Notes under the pieces: generated by a model
The model's input: only the letters and a program-made list of their open reading frames with translations
What the model was told of the DNA's origin: nothing
Database searches by the model: none
In this document: positions 48,774 through 56,998 of the stretch, in pieces
How positions within the stretch are numbered: position 1 is the first letter of the stretch
Layout of the letters: each line of letters begins with the position of its first letter
Position numbers and translations under genes: made by a program
Assembly: GCF_020723905.1 (NCBI RefSeq)
Contig: NZ_DYHZ01000006.1
Location: 124,001 to 188,000 of the forward strand
Source of the DNA: Anaerolinea thermophila
GTDB taxonomy: Bacteria > Chloroflexota > Anaerolineae > Anaerolineales > Anaerolineaceae
Direction: 5' to 3'
Length of the DNA: 64,000 nt

Positions 48774-49637
48774 TCAATTGAGTAAAGCAGGAATCTCTTC
48801 GGGGTGATTGGCTACGCGAACACCACTCTTTTCCAGCGCCAGTACTTTATCCCGGGCAGTACCCGTCCCACCTTCTATTATTGCTCCGGCATGCCCCATG
48901 CGCTTACCAGGAGGAGCTGATTGACCGGCAATGAATGCTACCACCGGTTTGGTCATATGCCGGGAAATAAATTCAGCGGCTTTTTCCTCATCTGTTCCGC
49001 CAATTTCTCCAATCATCACCACCTGATCGGTATGGGGATCGGCTTCAAACAATTCAAGGACATCCACAAAATTCGTCCCGTTGATTGGATCACCGCCAAT
49101 GCCCACACAGGTGCTGGCTCCCTTGCCAGCCAGTTTGAGCGCATACAATACTTCATAAGTCAACGTACCCGAACGGGAGACAATGCCAACGTTTCCCGGT
49201 ATTGCAATATTGTTGGGAATGATTCCCACTTTGGCTTCACCGGGTGTCAGCAAGCCGGGGCAGTTGGGGCCGATGAGACGGACGCGCTTTTGATCCAGAT
49301 AACTGCGTACACGCATCATATCCTGAACCGGAATCCCTTCGGTAATGCAAACAATCAACGAAACCCCCGCATCCGCGGCTTCCAAAATTGCATCGGGAGC
49401 AAAACGGGCAGGCACAAAAATCACACTGGTATTGGCGCCAGTCATTTCTACAGCCGAGCGCACCGTGTCAAATACCGGAATTTTTCCATCCAGCACCCAC
49501 TCCCCCCCTTTACCAGGAGTGACTCCCGCCACCACGTTGGTACCATAAGCCAGCATCTGGGTGGTGTGAAATAAACCTTCGTTGCCAGTAATACCCTGCA
49601 CAATCAAACGGGTTTGTTTGTTAACCAAAATGCTCAT
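48774..49637 (-). CDS. sucD: Succinyl-CoA ligase (ADP/GDP-forming), alpha subunit
   Basis: SucD binds CoA and carries the phospho-His of the succinyl-CoA to succinate reaction in the citric-acid cycle. [19 protein letters not shown] and GGVTPGKGG-type loops (here TPGKGGEWV) form the CoA site. [17 protein letters not shown] is highly conserved, and the active His lies in [11 protein letters not shown] near residue 245. At 287 residues it is of standard length. The ATG overlaps the sucC stop by four bases, giving coupled translation of equal subunits. Confidence 0.96.
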
Positions 49638-50776
49638 TTTGCTTCCCCTTTCACCACAGATACAGCCTTCTGAGCGGCTTCCAGAAGTGTTTCAGCAGTA
49701 ATCATGTTTGCCTCAGCCAGAAGTCGACGACCTTCTTCCGCGTTCGTACCCACCAGGCGAACCACCATGGGGATATTGGGTTTCACCTCGGCAAGCGCAG
49801 TTAAAATGCCCCGCGCCACCTCATCGCACCGGGTAATCCCGCCAAAAATATTAAAGAGAACGGCTTTGACCTTTGGATCGCTGAGGATAATTCGCAAGGC
49901 AGCGGCAACCTTTTCAGCGCCAGCCCCTCCACCGATATCCAGAAAGTTGGCAGGTTCACCGCCACACAGTTTGATGATGTCCATGGTTGCCATTGCAAGC
50001 CCTGCGCCATTGACCATACACCCGATCTCGCCATCCAGACTGATGTACGAGAGACCAAACTTACGAGCTTCCACTTCCGCCCAGTCCTCGGCGTCAAGAT
50101 CGCGCATCTCGGCTAAATCCGGGTGCCGGAACAGGGCATTATCGTCCACAATCATTTTCCCATCCAGCGCAAGGAGTTTCTTATCCGAAGTGATGACCAG
50201 AGGGTTGATTTCTGCCAGAGTGGCATCGTTATCGGTATAGGCTTTCCACAATCCATAAGCCACCTCAGCAAAGGAGCGCCATAAAGGACGGGGGAGATCA
50301 ATACTGACTGCCAGATCTCTGGCTTGATATTCTCGCAACCCCAACAGGGGGTCAATATGAATTTTGATGATTTTCTCGGGAGAAATTCGAGCCACTTCTT
50401 CGATATCCACACCACCGGCGGCAGAAGCCATCATCACCGGCCGGCGGGCAGTCCGATCATTGGTAATACCCAGGTAAATTTCCTTCTCAAAATTGACAGC
50501 TTCATCGACAAGGATTTTACGAACGGGCAGTCCTTTTATTTCCATCCCCAAAATAGCCGTTGCCAGTTCTTCGGCTTCTTTTGGGGTCTTCGCCAGGCGA
50601 ATCCCCCCGGCTTTTCCGCGTCCGCCAACCAGCACCTGGGCTTTGATGACAACTTTTCCACCCAGTTCTTCAGCAAAATGCTTTGCTTCGCTTGCCATAG
50701 TGGTCATGCGCCCCTTCGGGATCGGCACACCATAGCGGGAAAATATGGCTTTGGATTGATATTCATGCAGTTTCAT
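49634..50776 (-). CDS. sucC: Succinyl-CoA ligase (ADP/GDP-forming), beta subunit
   Basis: The 380-residue beta subunit has an N-terminal ATP-grasp fold starting [38 protein letters not shown] is the nucleotide-binding loop, and the C-terminal flavodoxin-like domain shows [15 protein letters not shown] and [17 protein letters not shown]. It phosphorylates ADP or GDP; sequence alone does not settle which. It leads the sucC-sucD operon, from an extended -10 promoter in the gap upstream. Confidence 0.96.
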
Positions 50777-50842: not shown

Positions 50843-50888
50843 AAAAAGACCCTGTACCTACCGAGTTTTTGTACGTACAGGGTCTTTT
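50843..50888 (-). terminator. Terminator of the SPFH-HTH operon
   Basis: AAAAGACCCTGTAC and GTACAGGGTCTTTT form a perfect 14-bp stem with a 17-base loop. On the minus strand the stem ends in a T-run, just after the stop of the SPFH-HTH gene. Confidence 0.85.
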
Positions 50889-50905
50889 CTCATCGTGCCT
50901 CGCTT

Positions 50906-51952
50906 TTATCCCTTCAGAAATGTCTCTAACGCTTCCCGGCTGATGCGATAAGCATTTCCAATTTTACGGGCTTTCAAGTCACCGGCATTAATGGCGGCAA
51001 GTACATCTTCTTCAGATACTTTCAAAATCGCAGCCGCCTCCGCGGGGGTCATCACGTCCGGTATTACCGGTGTTGTCTGCCCTCCTGCTGACGACGCGCC
51101 AGCACCACCTGCTGAACCCTGCAGGGTATTGGAGAGCAGGTTGCCAATCCCCATTCCAGCACCAATACCAGCGGTCAAGCCGGCACCACCGCTGGGATTC
51201 TGAGCAGCATCGCGTAAAGCATCTGCCGCCTGAAGTTGGGTATATGTCTGCATATCCAGCATGCCCATGGCGCGCAGTTCTTCGGCGGATTTTTCGGAGG
51301 GTTTAAGGCTGGCAATATAAAAACTCTTCAGGGTTAAGCCAACCGCCGCAAAATCATCCTGCGCTTTTGCCCGCACGGCAGCACCAATTTCTTCGGTTAA
51401 CCCGATCAGTTCCGCAACGGTGCGCTGGGCAGCAGTCTCTCCAAGAATGTCCTGTAATTTGGAGAGCAGCATGGTGCGCAGGCGGTTCTCAATTTCAGTG
51501 GTGGAATACATGTGCTGGGCACCCACCACCTGCGTGACAAACTGCTGTGGGTCGCGCACCTGGAAACTGTAAGTTCCAAAACTCTGGAGCAGAGCCACTC
51601 CCAACCCCATGCCCGGATTGCGTACCAGGATTGGTTGAGGGGTACCCCATTTTTTGTCTACGAACTCCCGCATGGAAACGAAGTACACTTCTGCAGTGAA
51701 CGGTGTGCGGTTGTTAAACGCTTTTCCGAGAAGTTCAGTCAGTAGAGGGACGTTTGCGGTGCTGATGGTATGTCTTCCGGGACCCAGAACATCCAGGGCA
51801 TGCCCATCGCGGAAAAAGACCGCCCGTTGAGATTCGCGGACGATGACCTGAGAACCAAAACGAAGGTCAGCCACCCCCTGTTCGGGAAAGCGGTGGACGA
51901 TTTCATCCTGCATCTCATTTGGGTATTCAACAACATCAAAAATTCTAGCCAT
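50906..51952 (-). CDS. SPFH-domain protein with C-terminal excisionase-type helix-turn-helix
   Basis: Residues about 1-230 match the SPFH_2 ('virion core protein'/YdjI-like) branch of the band-7 superfamily, with FRDGHALDVLGPGRHTIST and an amphipathic region ending near GMLDMQTYTQLQAADALRD. A Gly/Ala-rich linker (about 235-290) follows. Residues 298-348 are a compact helix-turn-helix of the MerR/excisionase (HTH_17) type: MTPAEAAAILKVSEEDV, then GNAYRISREALETFL. SPFH relatives usually end in zinc ribbons or short tails. The partner gene lies 17 bases upstream in one operon. There is no membrane helix. I infer an oligomeric scaffold with a DNA- or peptide-binding tail. Confidence 0.8.
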   Translation of the reverse strand: MARIFDVVEYPNEMQDEIVHRFPEQGVADLRFGSQVIVRESQRAVFFRDGHALDVLGPGRHTISTANVPLLTELLGKAFNNRTPFTAEVYFVSMREFVDKKWGTPQPILVRNPGMGLGVALLQSFGTYSFQVRDPQQFVTQVVGAQHMYSTTEIENRLRTMLLSKLQDILGETAAQRTVAELIGLTEEIGAAVRAKAQDDFAAVGLTLKSFYIASLKPSEKSAEELRAMGMLDMQTYTQLQAADALRDAAQNPSGGAGLTAGIGAGMGIGNLLSNTLQGSAGGAGASSAGGQTTPVIPDVMTPAEAAAILKVSEEDVLAAINAGDLKARKIGNAYRISREALETFLKG

Positions 51953-51969
51953 GGCTTACTCCCACTCTC

Positions 51970-52503
51970 TTACTCAGACTGTTCTGCCTGATTATGAAGA
52001 ATCACCTGCACCCGTTTGTCAAAAGCCTCGATGCATTTCTGCGATTCATTCACCAGCGCCCGGATTGCGGTGCCAAGCCCCTCTGTTCCTATTGCGGCTT
52101 CGACATTGTCAATAGCGCGTTCAACCGCCTCACCGGTTTCAAATAAAGCCAGGTCATATTGATAAATCAAAGCCAGTTCTTCGGAATTAACTTTGACCGC
52201 ATCGAAGAATCCCGCATACCCATAAGAAGCGGTGCGAACGCGGTCAATGAAAGTGCGCAACTTGACTGCAGCGCCTTCCAGGTCATCCACCCAGGTTAAA
52301 CCCCCCTGCGTGAGTAGATCTCGCTGTAAAGCAGAGATTCTTTGAACCAGAGTCTCAAATCGGCTGGCTATGGTCTCACGCAAGAGTTTGTCTGCTGATC
52401 TGCGGTTCACGCGGTCCACATACCCCTTAAACCCGGGGATCTTTCCCAACAATTTTCTAAAGGGGTCTTGTTCTTCCAGCACCCGTCCCAAAATGTCACT
52501 CAT
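51970..52503 (-). CDS. Uncharacterised helical protein paired with the SPFH-HTH protein
   Basis: The 177-residue protein is soluble and almost all helical, beginning DPFRKLLGKIPGFKGYVDRV and continuing with an Arg/Asp-rich helix (NRRSADKLLRETIASRF). I recognise no domain. There is no signal peptide or membrane segment. An excellent Shine-Dalgarno (AAGGAGG) and a good promoter suggest robust expression. It heads a two-gene operon with the SPFH-HTH gene, which suggests that the two proteins act together, for example as a scaffold plus a soluble adaptor (inference). Confidence 0.7.
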   Translation of the reverse strand: MSDILGRVLEEQDPFRKLLGKIPGFKGYVDRVNRRSADKLLRETIASRFETLVQRISALQRDLLTQGGLTWVDDLEGAAVKLRTFIDRVRTASYGYAGFFDAVKVNSEELALIYQYDLALFETGEAVERAIDNVEAAIGTEGLGTAIRALVNESQKCIEAFDKRVQVILHNQAEQSE

Positions 52504-52535
52504 TTTTCCTCCTTGGTTTTATCAACCCAGAATTG

Positions 52536-52564
52536 ATTATAGCGATAATTCATCAAGAAAACAA
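52536..52564 (-). promoter_or_regulatory. Promoter of the SPFH-HTH operon
   Basis: TTGTTT and a perfect TATAAT are 17 bases apart on the minus strand, 32 bases before the ATG of the helical partner protein. Confidence 0.65.
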
Positions 52565-52724: not shown

Positions 52725-52871
52725 ATGTTATTCGCCGCCAGAGAAAAAGGACAGGGTCTTGTTGAGTATGCACTCATTCTGGTTCTTGTCGCTGTAGTCG
52801 TCATTGTGATTCTGGCTCTTCTGGGGCCCGCAATCGGAAACATTTTCAGCAACATCATGACCAAAATTTAA
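52725..52871 (+). CDS. flp: Flp/Fap-type pilin subunit
   Basis: This 48-codon gene encodes the major subunit of Tad pili. A short basic leader (MLFAAREKG) ends in Gly, followed by the mature start QGLVEYALIL with the conserved Glu at position +4 or +5 and Tyr beside it, as required for prepilin peptidase cleavage and assembly. A single hydrophobic helix (VLVAVVVIVILALLG) and a short tail complete it. GGGAGG lies nine bases before the ATG. A promoter precedes it and a large hairpin follows, separating it from the assembly genes. Confidence 0.92.
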   Translation: MLFAAREKGQGLVEYALILVLVAVVVIVILALLGPAIGNIFSNIMTKI

Positions 52872-52895
52872 GCAGGCAAACTCGTTTTCACCCGC

Positions 52896-52925
52896 CATGA
52901 AGGGACTCGCAGGAGTCCCTTCATG
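52896..52925 (+). terminator. Hairpin after the pilin gene, likely partial terminator or mRNA stabiliser
   Basis: CATGAAGGGACTC and GAGTCCCTTCATG form a perfect 13-bp stem with a 4-base loop, 24 bases after the stop. No T-run follows, so it may protect the pilin mRNA 3' end while letting some polymerases pass into the assembly genes. Confidence 0.65.
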
Positions 52926-53006
52926 CTTGAAAGCGAGAGTGGCAACATTATTGCAACTATTCCTAATAAAACCGTAAGGTAAATTTTATTGTTATAAAAT
53001 ATGCGT

Positions 53007-53012
53007 ATAATT
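53007..53012 (+). promoter_or_regulatory. -10 element before cpaB
   Basis: A perfect TATAAT lies 68 bases before the cpaB start; only an AT-rich weak -35 (TTTTAT at 16-base spacing) is seen. It could drive the assembly genes separately from flp. Confidence 0.4.
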
Positions 53013-53080
53013 AGGTTAACTGCTACATAAGACACTGAAGAAAATCTTGAAATTCAATTCCTTTTGTTCAGGAGGATGAC

Positions 53081-54208
53081 ATGGCAACAGGTGGGAGACG
53101 CCGCGGACGAGCATTTATTCTTATTGCTCTGATCCTGATTTTGCTTCTCGTATTAGCATGGGCAGTGGTCCGCTTCTTTGCGCCACAGCAACTGCCTGCG
53201 GCACCGGGCGAAAGTTCGGTACCGCCAACTCCGGTTGAAGAAATGACTTCCATTGTGATTTCAGTACAACCTGTCTCACGTGGTCTGGAATTCAACGAAA
53301 CGAATGTGACAACCATCCCGTATCCCAAGAAGGATCTGGTTGAGGGTGCATTCATCACCGACATTCAGGAAGTGCTGGGGAAACGTGCCAAGTTTGACAT
53401 CGAAGCCCGCACCCCCATCACGATGACCATGCTGGTTGATCCCACCATGAAGAATTCGCCAGCGGCATTTCAGATTCCACCTGGTCAGGTTGCCATTACC
53501 ATTCCGGTGAGCAAATTGTCTTCGGTGGCTTATGGACTGGAACCGGGAGATCATGTCAACGTGATTGTATCCTTATTGCTGGTGGACATTGATCCGGGCT
53601 TCCAGTCCAAACTTCCGAACAACACGGGAGTCGTAGTTGCTCCAGGTCCTTCAGGTGAAGGTGGACCTACTACCATTTCTGCTTCGGTCAGTAAAACCGA
53701 CTCGCTCTCCGGGCGCACAGAACTGGATCCAACTCTTGGACAACCAATTTATGTCATTCCTTCGGAGCCTCAACGCCCTCGCCTGGTAAGCCAAACCTTG
53801 ATTCAGGATGCCATTGTGCTCCGACTGGGAGACTTCACCACAAGCGATCAGCAAGCCCAGGCTACTGCTCAACAGCAACCCACGCCTGTACCAGCAGGCG
53901 GGCAGGCTCAACAGCCCACCGAACCCGCCAAACCGGATACAGTGACCCTGATTGTCTCTCCGCAGGATGCTGTTACGCTGAATTATTTGATGCTGGCAGG
54001 AGGACGGTTGAACCTTGTCATGCGCAGTGCCGGGGATAGCCAGCGAATTGCTACAGAACCGGTTACGTTGCAGTTCATTCTGGATCAGTACAACATCCCG
54101 AATCCGGCAAAACTGCCTTACGGGTTAGAACCGCGTCTGGATCAGTTCCCAACCACTATTCCGGCATTTCCGAGCACAGGTTCAACCTTCAGTGCAACGC
54201 CGCAATAA
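53081..54208 (+). CDS. cpaB: Flp pilus assembly protein CpaB/RcpC
   Basis: An N-terminal helix (about 9-30) anchors a 375-residue outer protein with an SAF-type domain (TSIVISVQPVSRGLEFNETN, about 48-110) and an RcpC-like beta domain (VAITIPVSKLSSVAYGLEPG). A long Gln/Pro/Ala-rich low-complexity stretch (about 265-290) interrupts the C-terminal half. In diderms CpaB works with the secretin; here no secretin gene exists, so it probably spans or stabilises the pilus in the cell wall. The C-terminal Thr/Ser/Pro tail fits a wall-exposed protein. AGGAGG lies six bases before the ATG. Confidence 0.88.
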   Translation: MATGGRRRGRAFILIALILILLLVLAWAVVRFFAPQQLPAAPGESSVPPTPVEEMTSIVISVQPVSRGLEFNETNVTTIPYPKKDLVEGAFITDIQEVLGKRAKFDIEARTPITMTMLVDPTMKNSPAAFQIPPGQVAITIPVSKLSSVAYGLEPGDHVNVIVSLLLVDIDPGFQSKLPNNTGVVVAPGPSGEGGPTTISASVSKTDSLSGRTELDPTLGQPIYVIPSEPQRPRLVSQTLIQDAIVLRLGDFTTSDQQAQATAQQQPTPVPAGGQAQQPTEPAKPDTVTLIVSPQDAVTLNYLMLAGGRLNLVMRSAGDSQRIATEPVTLQFILDQYNIPNPAKLPYGLEPRLDQFPTTIPAFPSTGSTFSATPQ

Positions 54209-54256
54209 TGAGAAGTAGGGAATTGCAAACTTTACTGGCATGGATTATTGTTAAAT

Positions 54257-54283
54257 CAGATGCCTGAACTCTTCAGGTATCTG
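54257..54283 (+). terminator. Hairpin between cpaB and cpaE
   Basis: CAGATGCCTGAA pairs with TTCAGGTATCTG (12 bp including one G-U) around a 3-base loop. No T-run follows. It may act as a weak terminator or processing site tuning the downstream genes. Confidence 0.5.
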
Positions 54284-54310
54284 AGAGTTTAAGAAGTTAG
54301 AGGAGTTTTT

Positions 54311-55552
54311 ATGCCATCTCAGGAAAAAGTCCGGGTGTTGATAGTTGATGACATCTCTGAAACACGGGAAAACATCCGTCGAATGCTTCAGTTTGATGCC
54401 AACATTGAAGTAATCGGAGCGGCAAGAACCGGCCGAGAAGCCATCGAACAGGCACAACAACTGAAGCCGGATGTGATCGTGATGGATATCAACATGCCGG
54501 ACATGGACGGGATTACCGCTACACAGGAAATCAAGCGGAAACTCCCCTTTATTCAGGTGGTGATTTTATCCGTGCAAGGCGATCAATCTTACATGCGCCG
54601 TGCGATGCTGGCAGGGGCGCGCGACTTCCTCACCAAACCCCCCATGATTGACGAGTTGACGGATGCCATTCGTCGAGCAGGTGTGTTAGCCCACGAGGAA
54701 CGCAAAAAGGTTACTCCCGGCTTCCCGGTAGCGCCGGTGGAACCCGGAATCAGCGCGCCCATGCCTTCCTTATTGCCGCGCGGGAAAGTGATTGTCGTTT
54801 ACAGCCCCAAAGGAGGCACGGGATGCACCACCATTGCGACCAACCTTGCCATCGCATTGAAGTCGGATGAAGAAACTCGAGTTGCATTGATAGATGCAAA
54901 CCTCGAGTTTGGCGATGTTGCCGTATTCCTGAACGAACAAGGGAAAAACACAATCCTTGACCTGGCACCTCGCGCTGAAGAACTTGACCCCGAAATTGTC
55001 CAGAGCGTTATGGTCAATCATCGTTCTTCAGGGCTGGACATTCTGGCTGCTCCCCCTCGTCCAGAACATGCCTCAAAAATCACGGGAGAACAATTCTCCA
55101 AGATGATTGATTACTTGAAGAACCTCTACGCATACATCGTCATCGATACAGCCAGTTCTCTCACAGAAGTGGTTCAGGCTGCGCTGGATATTGCACATGT
55201 TATCGTGCTGGTCACCACGCAAGACATCCCCTCCATCAAAAACTGTAATCTTTTCCTCGGGTTGGCAGATGCCGTGGGGATGAAACGTGACCGCATCCTG
55301 TTCATCATGAATCGCTATGACAAACGAATCAATATTACCCCGGAACGGGTGGGAGAAAGCCTGAGACAACCGGTAGCCACAGCCATTCCTTACGATGAAC
55401 GATTTATTCCAGCCTCCGTTAATCGGGGGATTCCGTTTATGCTGGATAACAAAGCACAAGCCATTGCAAAATCCATCCAGTCCTTAAGCGATCTGGTAAA
55501 GGAAAAGATTGCCAAACTCGAAGCAACTGAAGCAGAACTTTCTGCTAAATAA
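54311..55552 (+). CDS. cpaE: CpaE/TadZ-like protein: receiver domain fused to MinD/ParA-type ATPase
   Basis: CpaE-type proteins place the Tad machine at the right site in the cell. Residues 8-125 form a receiver domain with Asp13/Asp14, phosphoacceptor Asp59 (VIVMDINMPDMDG), Ser87 and Lys109 (LTKP), apparently all intact. Residues about 158-400 are the P-loop domain with the deviant Walker A KGGTGCTT at 167-174 and Walker A' DANLEFGDV at about 198. Many CpaE/TadZ proteins have decayed receivers, so phosphorylation control is plausible here. AGGAG precedes the ATG. Confidence 0.9.
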   Translation: MPSQEKVRVLIVDDISETRENIRRMLQFDANIEVIGAARTGREAIEQAQQLKPDVIVMDINMPDMDGITATQEIKRKLPFIQVVILSVQGDQSYMRRAMLAGARDFLTKPPMIDELTDAIRRAGVLAHEERKKVTPGFPVAPVEPGISAPMPSLLPRGKVIVVYSPKGGTGCTTIATNLAIALKSDEETRVALIDANLEFGDVAVFLNEQGKNTILDLAPRAEELDPEIVQSVMVNHRSSGLDILAAPPRPEHASKITGEQFSKMIDYLKNLYAYIVIDTASSLTEVVQAALDIAHVIVLVTTQDIPSIKNCNLFLGLADAVGMKRDRILFIMNRYDKRINITPERVGESLRQPVATAIPYDERFIPASVNRGIPFMLDNKAQAIAKSIQSLSDLVKEKIAKLEATEAELSAK

Positions 55553-55582
55553 TGGTGGTGACTTTCAAAGGAGGGAAAGCCC

Positions 55583-56998
55583 ATGTCCATTTTAAAGAGA
55601 ATTCAGGGCAATAATCCACCCCAACAGGGAGGGCAACCTCCCAGTAACGGGAGCGGGATTAATCCGCCCACAGCCCCAAATATGCAAGCCACACGGAGAA
55701 TCCCAGCCCCGGGAATCCCATCGGCTCAGGATACCTATCAGGACCTGAAATCTCGTGTCCAGAGCAAATTGCTTGCGGGGTTAGATCCAACAGCAGACCC
55801 TTCCCGTGTGCCCGAAATGCGCCGAACCATCCAGGAATTATTCGAACAAATCCTCACCGAAGAGAACATTGTGCTCTCCCGACCCGAACGGGCGCGGATG
55901 TTTGAGCAAATCGCGGCAGAAATTCTGGGACTGGGTCCTCTGCAATCCCTGCTTGAAGACGACACCATTACCGAAATTATGGTCAACGGTCCCAAAAACG
56001 TGTACGTTGAGCGTGGCGGACGCATTTACCGTGCCCCGGTCACTTTTGAGAACAACGAACATGTCATGCGTATCATTGAACGCATCGTTGCTCCTCTGGG
56101 ACGTAGAATTGACGAGTCTCAACCTTACGTGGACGCCCGCTTGATGGACGGCTCGCGCGTAAATGCGGTCATTCCTCCCATCTCACTGGTGGGTCCGGTA
56201 CTGACCATTCGTAAGTTTGCGCGTAAGCCCATCACCGTGGAACAATTAATTCAATTCGGCTCCATCACCCCGGAAGCCATCGAATTTCTCAAGGCGTGCG
56301 TGATTGCGCGTTTGAACATCGTGGTATCCGGCGGCACGGGCTCCGGAAAGACCACCCTGCTCAACATCCTTTCGGGATTCATTCCATCGGATGAACGCAT
56401 CATCACCATTGAAAACGCGGCAGAATTGCAGTTACGTCAGGAGCACGTGGTCACGCTAGAGTCGCGCCCACCAAACATCGAAGGCAAGGGTGAGATCACC
56501 ATCCGTCAACTGGTCATCAATGCCCTGCGCATGCGCCCTGACCGCATTATCGTTGGCGAGTGCCGCGGCGACGAAGCCCTGGATATGTTACAAGCCATGA
56601 ACACCGGTCATGATGGTTCCATGACCACCGCACACTCGAACAGCCCACGCGACACCCTGGCTCGTCTGGAAACCATGACAATGATGGCTGGTATGGAACT
56701 ACCGGTTCGCGCCATCCGTGAGCAGGTTTCTTCAGCCATTGACCTGATTGTTCATCAAGAACGTATGCGGGATGGTTCGCGCAAAGTTGTCAATATCACA
56801 GAAGTCTCCGGTATGGAAGGAGACGTCATCACCACAACCGATTTGTTCGTCTTTGAACAGGCCGGTTACGAAAATGGGAAGATTATTGGACGTCTGCGTC
56901 CCACCGGTTTGCGCCCGAAATTCATGGACAAGATCGAAGCCGCAGGCATTCACCTGCCTGCCACCATCTTTGGGATTGGCGAACGCCGCAGATTCTAA
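55583..56998 (+). CDS. cpaF: Tad pilus assembly ATPase CpaF/TadA
   Basis: This is a secretion-type ATPase that powers pilus extension, and perhaps retraction. The first 50 residues are Pro/Gln/Asn-rich and probably disordered. The N-terminal domain (about 55-220) leads to Walker [10 protein letters not shown] at 250-258, an Asp box, Walker [17 protein letters not shown] at about 322 and the His box [15 protein letters not shown]. The length of 471 is typical. AGGAGGG precedes the ATG. It follows cpaE by 30 bases and leads into tadB. Confidence 0.95.

Follow-up and report, generated by a model that had tools for sequence, protein, structure and literature searches.

The window (the whole stretch of 64,000 nucleotides of Anaerolinea thermophila DNA analysed here) carries a two-gene operon encoding a soluble SPFH_2 protein and a predicted four-helix-bundle protein, its partner. 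The two genes occur together in most genomes of the order, and the SPFH_2 protein ends in a winged helix in which the DNA-reading residues of BldC have been replaced. On the same SPFH core, some relatives carry other tails. The nearest known system is PspA-YdjG-YdjH-YdjI of Bacillus subtilis, above all YdjI (SPFH_2, PF13421), and we propose, giving the idea about an even chance, that the window holds a YdjI-type operon for envelope care, in which a soluble SPFH scaffold with a swappable protein-gripping tail would work with a dedicated helical partner. SPFH proteins are widespread in life, and we know of no settled account of how the soluble bacterial ones choose their clients.

The operon and the SPFH core

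The partner gene precedes the SPFH gene in the same direction, with 17 bp between them in the ORF list of the window (Table 1), so both reading frames and the co-directional operon described in the earlier note are confirmed. The strong terminator assigned to it also holds: the 15-bp hairpin is accompanied by a U-run, and an 87-nt stretch of the region has a folding energy of -33.1 kcal/mol (z -6.6). This hairpin could be used by both strands; it was unlisted by the pattern scan because its loop exceeds the length allowed there. The promoter, described as good, is so only in part. Its -10 box is perfect and the Shine-Dalgarno sequence of the partner gene is strong, but the -35 element matches the consensus at 3/6 positions at 17-bp spacing, and a consensus promoter scan returned no minus-strand site upstream of the partner gene.

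Table 1. Features of the partner-SPFH operon, in window coordinates
Feature	Position	Strand	Details
Terminator hairpin	50843..50889 (approx.)	.	15-bp stem, T-run at both ends; minus strand folded
SPFH gene	50906..51952	-	348 aa, SPFH_2 (Band_7_1) and winged-helix tail
Winged-helix (Xis/BldC fold) tail, residues 299-348	50909..51058	-	Pfam and structure comparison
Recognition-helix position, residues 314-322	50987..51013	-	Acidic, without basic residues
Variable linker, residues 273-298	51059..51136	-	Conservation 0.35, 27% mean identity
Glycine-alternating segment, residues 254-272, SGGAGLTAGIGAGMGIGNL	51137..51193	-	Alignment A2 and conservation
SPFH/Band_7_1 domain, residues 19-217	51302..51898	-	Pfam, E 3.6e-49
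Partner gene	51970..52503	-	177 aa
Shine-Dalgarno AAGGAGG of partner gene, strong	52508..52514	-	Read from sequence
-10 box TATAAT (perfect)	52536..52541	-	Read by eye

Downstream of the SPFH gene, past its terminator, lie sucD and sucC (48774-50776, minus strand), assigned through the Pfam families ATP-grasp_2, CoA_binding and Ligase_CoA; homologues of sucC and sucD are found near the SPFH gene in 55 and 52, respectively, of 80 Anaerolineaceae-type loci. A divergent Tad/Flp-type pilus cluster (52725-56998, plus strand), which starts some 220 bp away from the partner, comprises a Flp-like pilin (28.2 bits, just below the cut-off of 32.2), RcpC/CpaB, a response-regulator plus ParA-type ATPase (CpaE-like) and a T2SSE ATPase. 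Membership of the gene pair in the Tad pilus was considered and rejected, since a CpaB-type gene adjoins only 34 of the 80 loci.

At E 0.001, the genome of the window has no Band_7_1 match other than the SPFH protein, which scores 167.7 bits against a cut-off of 24. In structure comparison, the core of the predicted monomer matches stomatin, prohibitin and flotillin (Z up to 12.1). No membrane helix was found in the protein, its best 19-residue Kyte-Doolittle mean being 1.07, in agreement with its description as an SPFH_2 protein lacking one. The region between core and tail had been described as a Gly/Ala linker, which fits the variable linker of residues 273-298 but not residues 254-272. The latter form a separate glycine segment with a mean conservation of 0.76, like that of the SPFH core, across the tail types in alignment A2; its mean identity to the window is 87%, and G266 is kept in 46/46 alignment rows. 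By hydropathy this segment is too weakly hydrophobic for a membrane helix, and it is undefined in the AlphaFold model of the monomer. Our guess is that it packs in the oligomer, for example as a cap closing SPFH cages.

Conservation of the gene pair

A partner gene lies directly upstream of the SPFH gene in 72 of the 80 loci L033-L112, three of the other eight having upstream sequence shorter than 200 bp, and in 21 of 30 further loci of the phylum (L003-L032), a count that includes L004, scored as partner-family yet an odd long ORF. The genome of the window is Anaerolinea-like, its best loci with an organism name being those of Bellilinea, Anaerolinea and A. thermolimosa. L001 and L002, which are the window itself, are left out of these locus counts; one or more genomes have probably been counted twice, since L031 and L055 encode an identical SPFH protein. 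The gap between the two genes has a median of 42 bp (range 12-130, 93 loci). The partner is absent upstream in 17/110 loci, including six of the nine with zinc-ribbon forms. It adjoins HTH forms at 75 loci, SHOCT-like forms at 12 and zinc-ribbon forms at 3, and is missing at 10, 1 and 6, respectively; the partner is thus tied to the SPFH core rather than to a particular tail.

Co-occurrence extends to whole genomes. Among 400 genomes of the phylum, SPFH_2 (strong matches, E up to 1e-30) was found in 66 and the partner in 62, with both in 57, SPFH_2 alone in nine and the partner alone in five. Among 201 genomes of the order, where SPFH_2 was counted as present if stronger than ~1e-15, 170 have both genes, three the SPFH gene alone, three the partner alone and 25 neither, so that presence and absence are concordant in 195. 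Conserved pairing in other genomes is thus supported. In family f101, both genes are missing in 10/10 genomes, which looks like joint loss. Many of the 25 genomes with neither gene are incomplete assemblies and, since the genes are linked, linkage alone could remove both. However, family f2 retains both genes in 23 genomes despite their separation, on different contigs in 16 and at least 10 kb apart in five, and linkage is therefore not the whole explanation.

Full unlinking in f2 was rejected, as in the two closest cases of this family the partner and SPFH genes flank a xanthine-dehydrogenase-type cluster (L194 2714-9342; L193 3008-11053); the separation therefore looks secondary. Both clusters comprise an FAD/2Fe-2S subunit, a 137-140-aa protein without a Pfam match and a molybdopterin subunit, and that of L194 contains XdhC too, with all genes on one strand (genes identified by Pfam in L194 and named by likeness in L193). 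An XdhC-type gene is found near the SPFH gene in L186, L188, L192, L194 and L196 (by Pfam in L194, by likeness in the rest); in L188, a Rnk/GreA-type gene (138 aa; PF01272, PF14760) lies between it and the SPFH gene.

Evolutionary distances of the SPFH core and the partner correlate beyond what sucC accounts for (partial r 0.67, 56 loci), a value reached in 0/999 permutations. For the HTH alone, the partial correlation with the partner is lower (0.40). The correlation is consistent with physical contact between the two sequences' products, although it is no proof of it.

Such an uncharacterised two-gene operon could be an anti-phage defence module, and the HTH alone gives one weak PADLOC match (mad1, 22.9 bits). 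However, the partner is present in 173 of the 201 genomes of the order and the sucCD neighbourhood is recurrent, which is unlike mobile defence. Moreover, relatives of the partner were found neither in plasmids nor in IMG/VR, and visual inspection of the 25 commonest neighbour clusters revealed no recognisable defence gene. We regard a defence role as very improbable. An origin of the pair from phages or plasmids was likewise rejected: no partner relative was found in IMG/VR or on any plasmid record searched, and the SPFH matches there are distant cores.

The winged-helix tail

The helix-turn-helix fold seen in the tail by the earlier note is supported. Residues 300-347 match HTH_17 (E 1.7e-12; 47.8 bits against a cut-off of 27), an NCBIfam excisionase model matches the tail over its cut-off, and the predicted structure has block means of pLDDT of 83-90. 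It matches Xis of phage Pukovnik (4j2n; Z 9.3, rmsd 1.8 over 54 residues) and DNA-bound BldC (6amk; Z 8.8, rmsd 1.2 over 50 residues). On the other hand, the DNA-binding surface that the note had envisaged was not borne out. We collected 84 SPFH-HTH sequences including the window (L001), 78 of them distinct; L028, an SPFH fragment of 38 residues, stands outside every tail count. The recognition helix, mostly S-E-E-D-V-x-A-A-I, carries a net charge of -5 to -3 in 84/84 tails, whereas in 20 ordinary HTH_17 domains, sampled within the same family of bacteria and presumed to be DNA binders, it ranges from 0 to +3. These controls derive from 30 loci that yielded 27 domains (20 ordinary and seven SPFH tails), three loci having no domain.

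Comparison with BldC points in the same direction. Of the two residues with which BldC reads bases, Lys26 corresponds to Glu315 in 83/84 tails and Arg30 to Ala319 in 80/84; of the phosphate contacts, T27 is replaced by D in 83/84 tails and K33 mostly by T, N, Q or E. The register comes from a HMMER alignment with a weak E-value (0.21), and the 6amk fold match spans the same stretch. In BldC itself, the R30A substitution is reported to essentially abolish DNA binding (PMC5859096). Over 85 sequences, the window among them, mean identity to the window is 78.5% in the tail, close to the 81% of the core, but falls to 27% in the linker; the tail is therefore under selection. Given the acidic helix, the replaced BldC base readers and a likewise altered relative in Comamonas (see below), we take the tail for a winged helix that does not read specific DNA sequences and is retained for a different surface.

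The main fact against this non-DNA reading is the basic wing (K327, R/K329, K330 and R336), in which K330, R336 and R/K329 are each present in 84/84 tails. Thus, by the earlier note's own test of basic residues for DNA contact, the recognition helix fails in every tail although the wing remains basic, and weak or minor-groove DNA binding may have been retained. If the winged helix does bind DNA, an SPFH ring would offer a multivalent DNA surface and could serve as nucleoid scaffold or as a regulator linked to the membrane; avidity could offset weak single sites. Likeness to DNA-bound BldC and phage Xis, the HTH_17 and excisionase matches and the invariant K330 and R336 speak for such a role; the charge of the recognition helix, the substitutions at BldC contact positions and the occurrence of non-HTH tails on the same core elsewhere make it improbable in our judgement. 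Overall, the tail shares the winged-helix fold and a basic wing with BldC and the phage excisionases (HTH_17, Xis) but differs from them in that the DNA readers of its recognition helix are now acidic or small and in that it is fused to an SPFH scaffold. The peptide-binding surface, which the earlier note had given in brackets as an alternative, fits these data better than DNA, and the label 'excisionase-type HTH' need not imply DNA binding.

The adaptor reading draws further on the variety of tails. Elsewhere, the same SPFH core ends in another domain, namely double zinc ribbons, SHOCT or SHOCT-like helices, or GYF_2, which makes the tail the swappable part of the protein; Chloroflexota relatives with other tails share the glycine segment and the tail position with the window protein. 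Among the SHOCT-like tails scanned, that of L023 (37.4 bits) is the sole one over the Pfam SHOCT cut-off; those of L015, L021 and L183 score below it, and those of L013 and L018 gave no SHOCT match in the Pfam scan. Tail states change at least seven times on a tree of 51 cores, a quick tree from which three plasmid rows were left out. Interaction is the known or proposed role of SHOCT and of the peptide binder GYF_2, which favours the adaptor reading; zinc ribbons may have either proteins or nucleic acids as ligands. Judged from its residues, the winged-helix tail would most likely grip a protein. SHOCT is reported to be attached most often to PF13421 (PMC3581485).

The partner, PspA and related SPFH_2 systems

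As the earlier note supposed, the partner is an uncharacterised helical protein. Its model, predicted from 69 aligned sequences, is all helix (mean pLDDT 84.5) and forms a four-helix bundle (residues 31-65, 69-94, 107-137 and 143-176) with additional short helices at the N-terminus and at 97-100. The N-terminal region displays a conserved motif, P23-G24-x2-G27-Y28 followed by R34-R35-x2-D38-x3-R42, and the invariant residues of alignment A1 (which excludes the odd long ORF of L004, L008, L018 and a few near-duplicates) include P23, D38, R42, A92, G95, L110, D117 and R164. Residues 3-165 of 177 match NCBIfam NF047596 (the LIMLP_15305 family, which takes its name from a Leptospira locus tag) with 52.5 bits, below the cut-off of 210, and the partner is by sequence a distant relative of this family. 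A literature search for the function of LIMLP_15305 returned none, only one uninformative table entry. Foldseek with the partner model gave no match at E 0.001; the best VIA match, IncA (Z 13.2), lies at the limit of the scores that helical bundles commonly give. PDB sequence searches with both whole proteins and both profiles gave nothing meaningful.

YdjI of B. subtilis is a characterised SPFH_2 protein reported to be soluble, to interact with PspA in two-hybrid assays and to reach the membrane through YdjG/YdjH; it is required for PspA foci and to bring PspA to the membrane (PMC8581546). Operons combining Band-7 proteins and PspA have been surveyed (PMC11237479), and PspA genes are described as frequently lying beside winged-helix proteins (PMC10936438). 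Like YdjI as presented in these sources, the window protein is a soluble Band_7_1 protein without a membrane helix and has a small domain C-terminal to its SPFH core (PMC8581546, PMC11237479), which is a winged helix here and a zinc ribbon in YdjI. Both systems encode SPFH_2 with a helical protein, and in one genome, G253, PspA itself is part of the run: genes for a TM/zinc-ribbon protein, the partner, PspA and SPFH_2 lie in this order on a single strand, separated by 30, 23 and 36 bp. This run, the only case of PspA beside the partner-SPFH pair, places the partner, on the strength of one genome, among PspA/SPFH_2-type systems.

The small protein that heads the G253 run (L184 4812-5336, minus strand) is 42% identical to one encoded upstream of SPFH_2 in L015 (2271-2867, minus strand). 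Both have two membrane helices (by eye), a zinc-ribbon end (weak Pfam matches) and a weak HTH_DeoR match below the cut-off; possibly they represent a second winged helix in an SPFH_2 context, on a separate membrane protein.

The system of the window differs from PspA-YdjGHI in its additional helical partner family and in that PspA and the TPM-domain protein YdjH were not found in its genome. No PspA (PF04012) match was obtained there even at E 10, and no TPM-domain protein in any of 21 genomes including that of the window, although the same search finds one in B. subtilis. Two known Bacillus partners are thus missing, and no membrane anchor was identified in the operon. Of the 35 genomes of the order in the phylum set, none has PspA, whereas 34 have the partner and all 35 have SPFH_2. 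Complete absence of PspA from the order was nevertheless rejected: of the 201 genomes, 13 contain PspA over the cut-off and 17 at E 0.001 (partner, 173), and we therefore claim only that PspA is mostly absent.

This distribution, together with the usual position of the partner next to SPFH, which is that of PspA in G253, would fit a partner that took over the job of PspA, as a membrane-acting, SPFH-recruited substitute in the PspA-poor Anaerolineales. However, 18 of the 62 genomes with the partner also have PspA, and in G253 the two genes adjoin; the partner is therefore no mere replacement. Nor do the two proteins look alike. A divergent PspA was rejected by hhalign of A1 against nine PspA sequences of the phylum (probability 0.2%, E 0.25), and the partner has no Pfam PspA match. 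PspA is a long hairpin, whereas the partner is predicted to be a compact four-helix bundle, and its N-terminal region has no strong amphipathic helix (best moment 0.49). Substitution for PspA is, in our view, unlikely, though less so than DNA reading by the tail.

The architecture of the window protein recurs outside the phylum in WP_224153175.1, encoded on a Comamonas odontotermitis plasmid, which also combines Band_7_1 with a C-terminal HTH_17. Like the window protein, it has no basic residue in the recognition helix and carries a wing motif, LKGRKIG; unlike it (35% identity), it is followed by a zinc-ribbon gene. Zinc-ribbon proteins directly after SPFH_2 are encoded on Vibrio and Comamonas plasmids (L182 6075-7133; L181 7366-8454). 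They are 29% identical to each other, have a C-terminal hydrophobic stretch (by eye) and resemble YdjG as described in PMC11237479; the Vibrio SPFH_2 protein that precedes one of them has a GYF_2 tail.

The claim that this combination has no described function needs qualification. No paper on SPFH-HTH proteins was found in the open-licence literature, a search mostly outside subscription journals, but NCBI already names the architecture ('SPFH and helix-turn-helix domain-containing protein') and YdjI has been characterised (PMC8581546). Neither the pairing of the partner with SPFH_2 nor the loss of DNA-reading residues appears to be described in the literature searched.

Collectively, from the predicted folds, the gene pairing and the likeness to YdjI, we infer an envelope function, an oligomer and binding between its components. 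In the envelope-care proposal, the SPFH_2 protein would be a soluble, multi-subunit scaffold, as its predicted fold and the assembly of SPFH relatives suggest, and each subunit would end in a swappable adaptor, here a winged helix without the DNA-reading residues of BldC. The four-helix-bundle protein would be the dedicated partner of this scaffold, as their co-occurrence suggests, and would probably act where PspA acts in Bacillus, either as an effector of the scaffold or in coupling it to the membrane. Thus, a YdjI-like scaffold would work here with the partner and without PspA, and the winged helix would hold a further protein, possibly the missing membrane anchor. A bolder version recalls the ESCRT system, which has winged-helix adaptors (ESCRT-II) and helical effectors (ESCRT-III): the operon would encode a mostly PspA-independent membrane-maintenance machine, in which a ring of winged-helix adaptors organises a four-helix effector, as a separately evolved parallel to ESCRT. 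This we consider speculative and slightly less probable than the substitution for PspA.

The tails swapped on one core (zinc ribbon, SHOCT, GYF_2 and winged helix) are natural constructs for tests of what a tail binds, and what the scaffold does by itself stands apart in a lineage that keeps it together with a dedicated partner but mostly lacks PspA.
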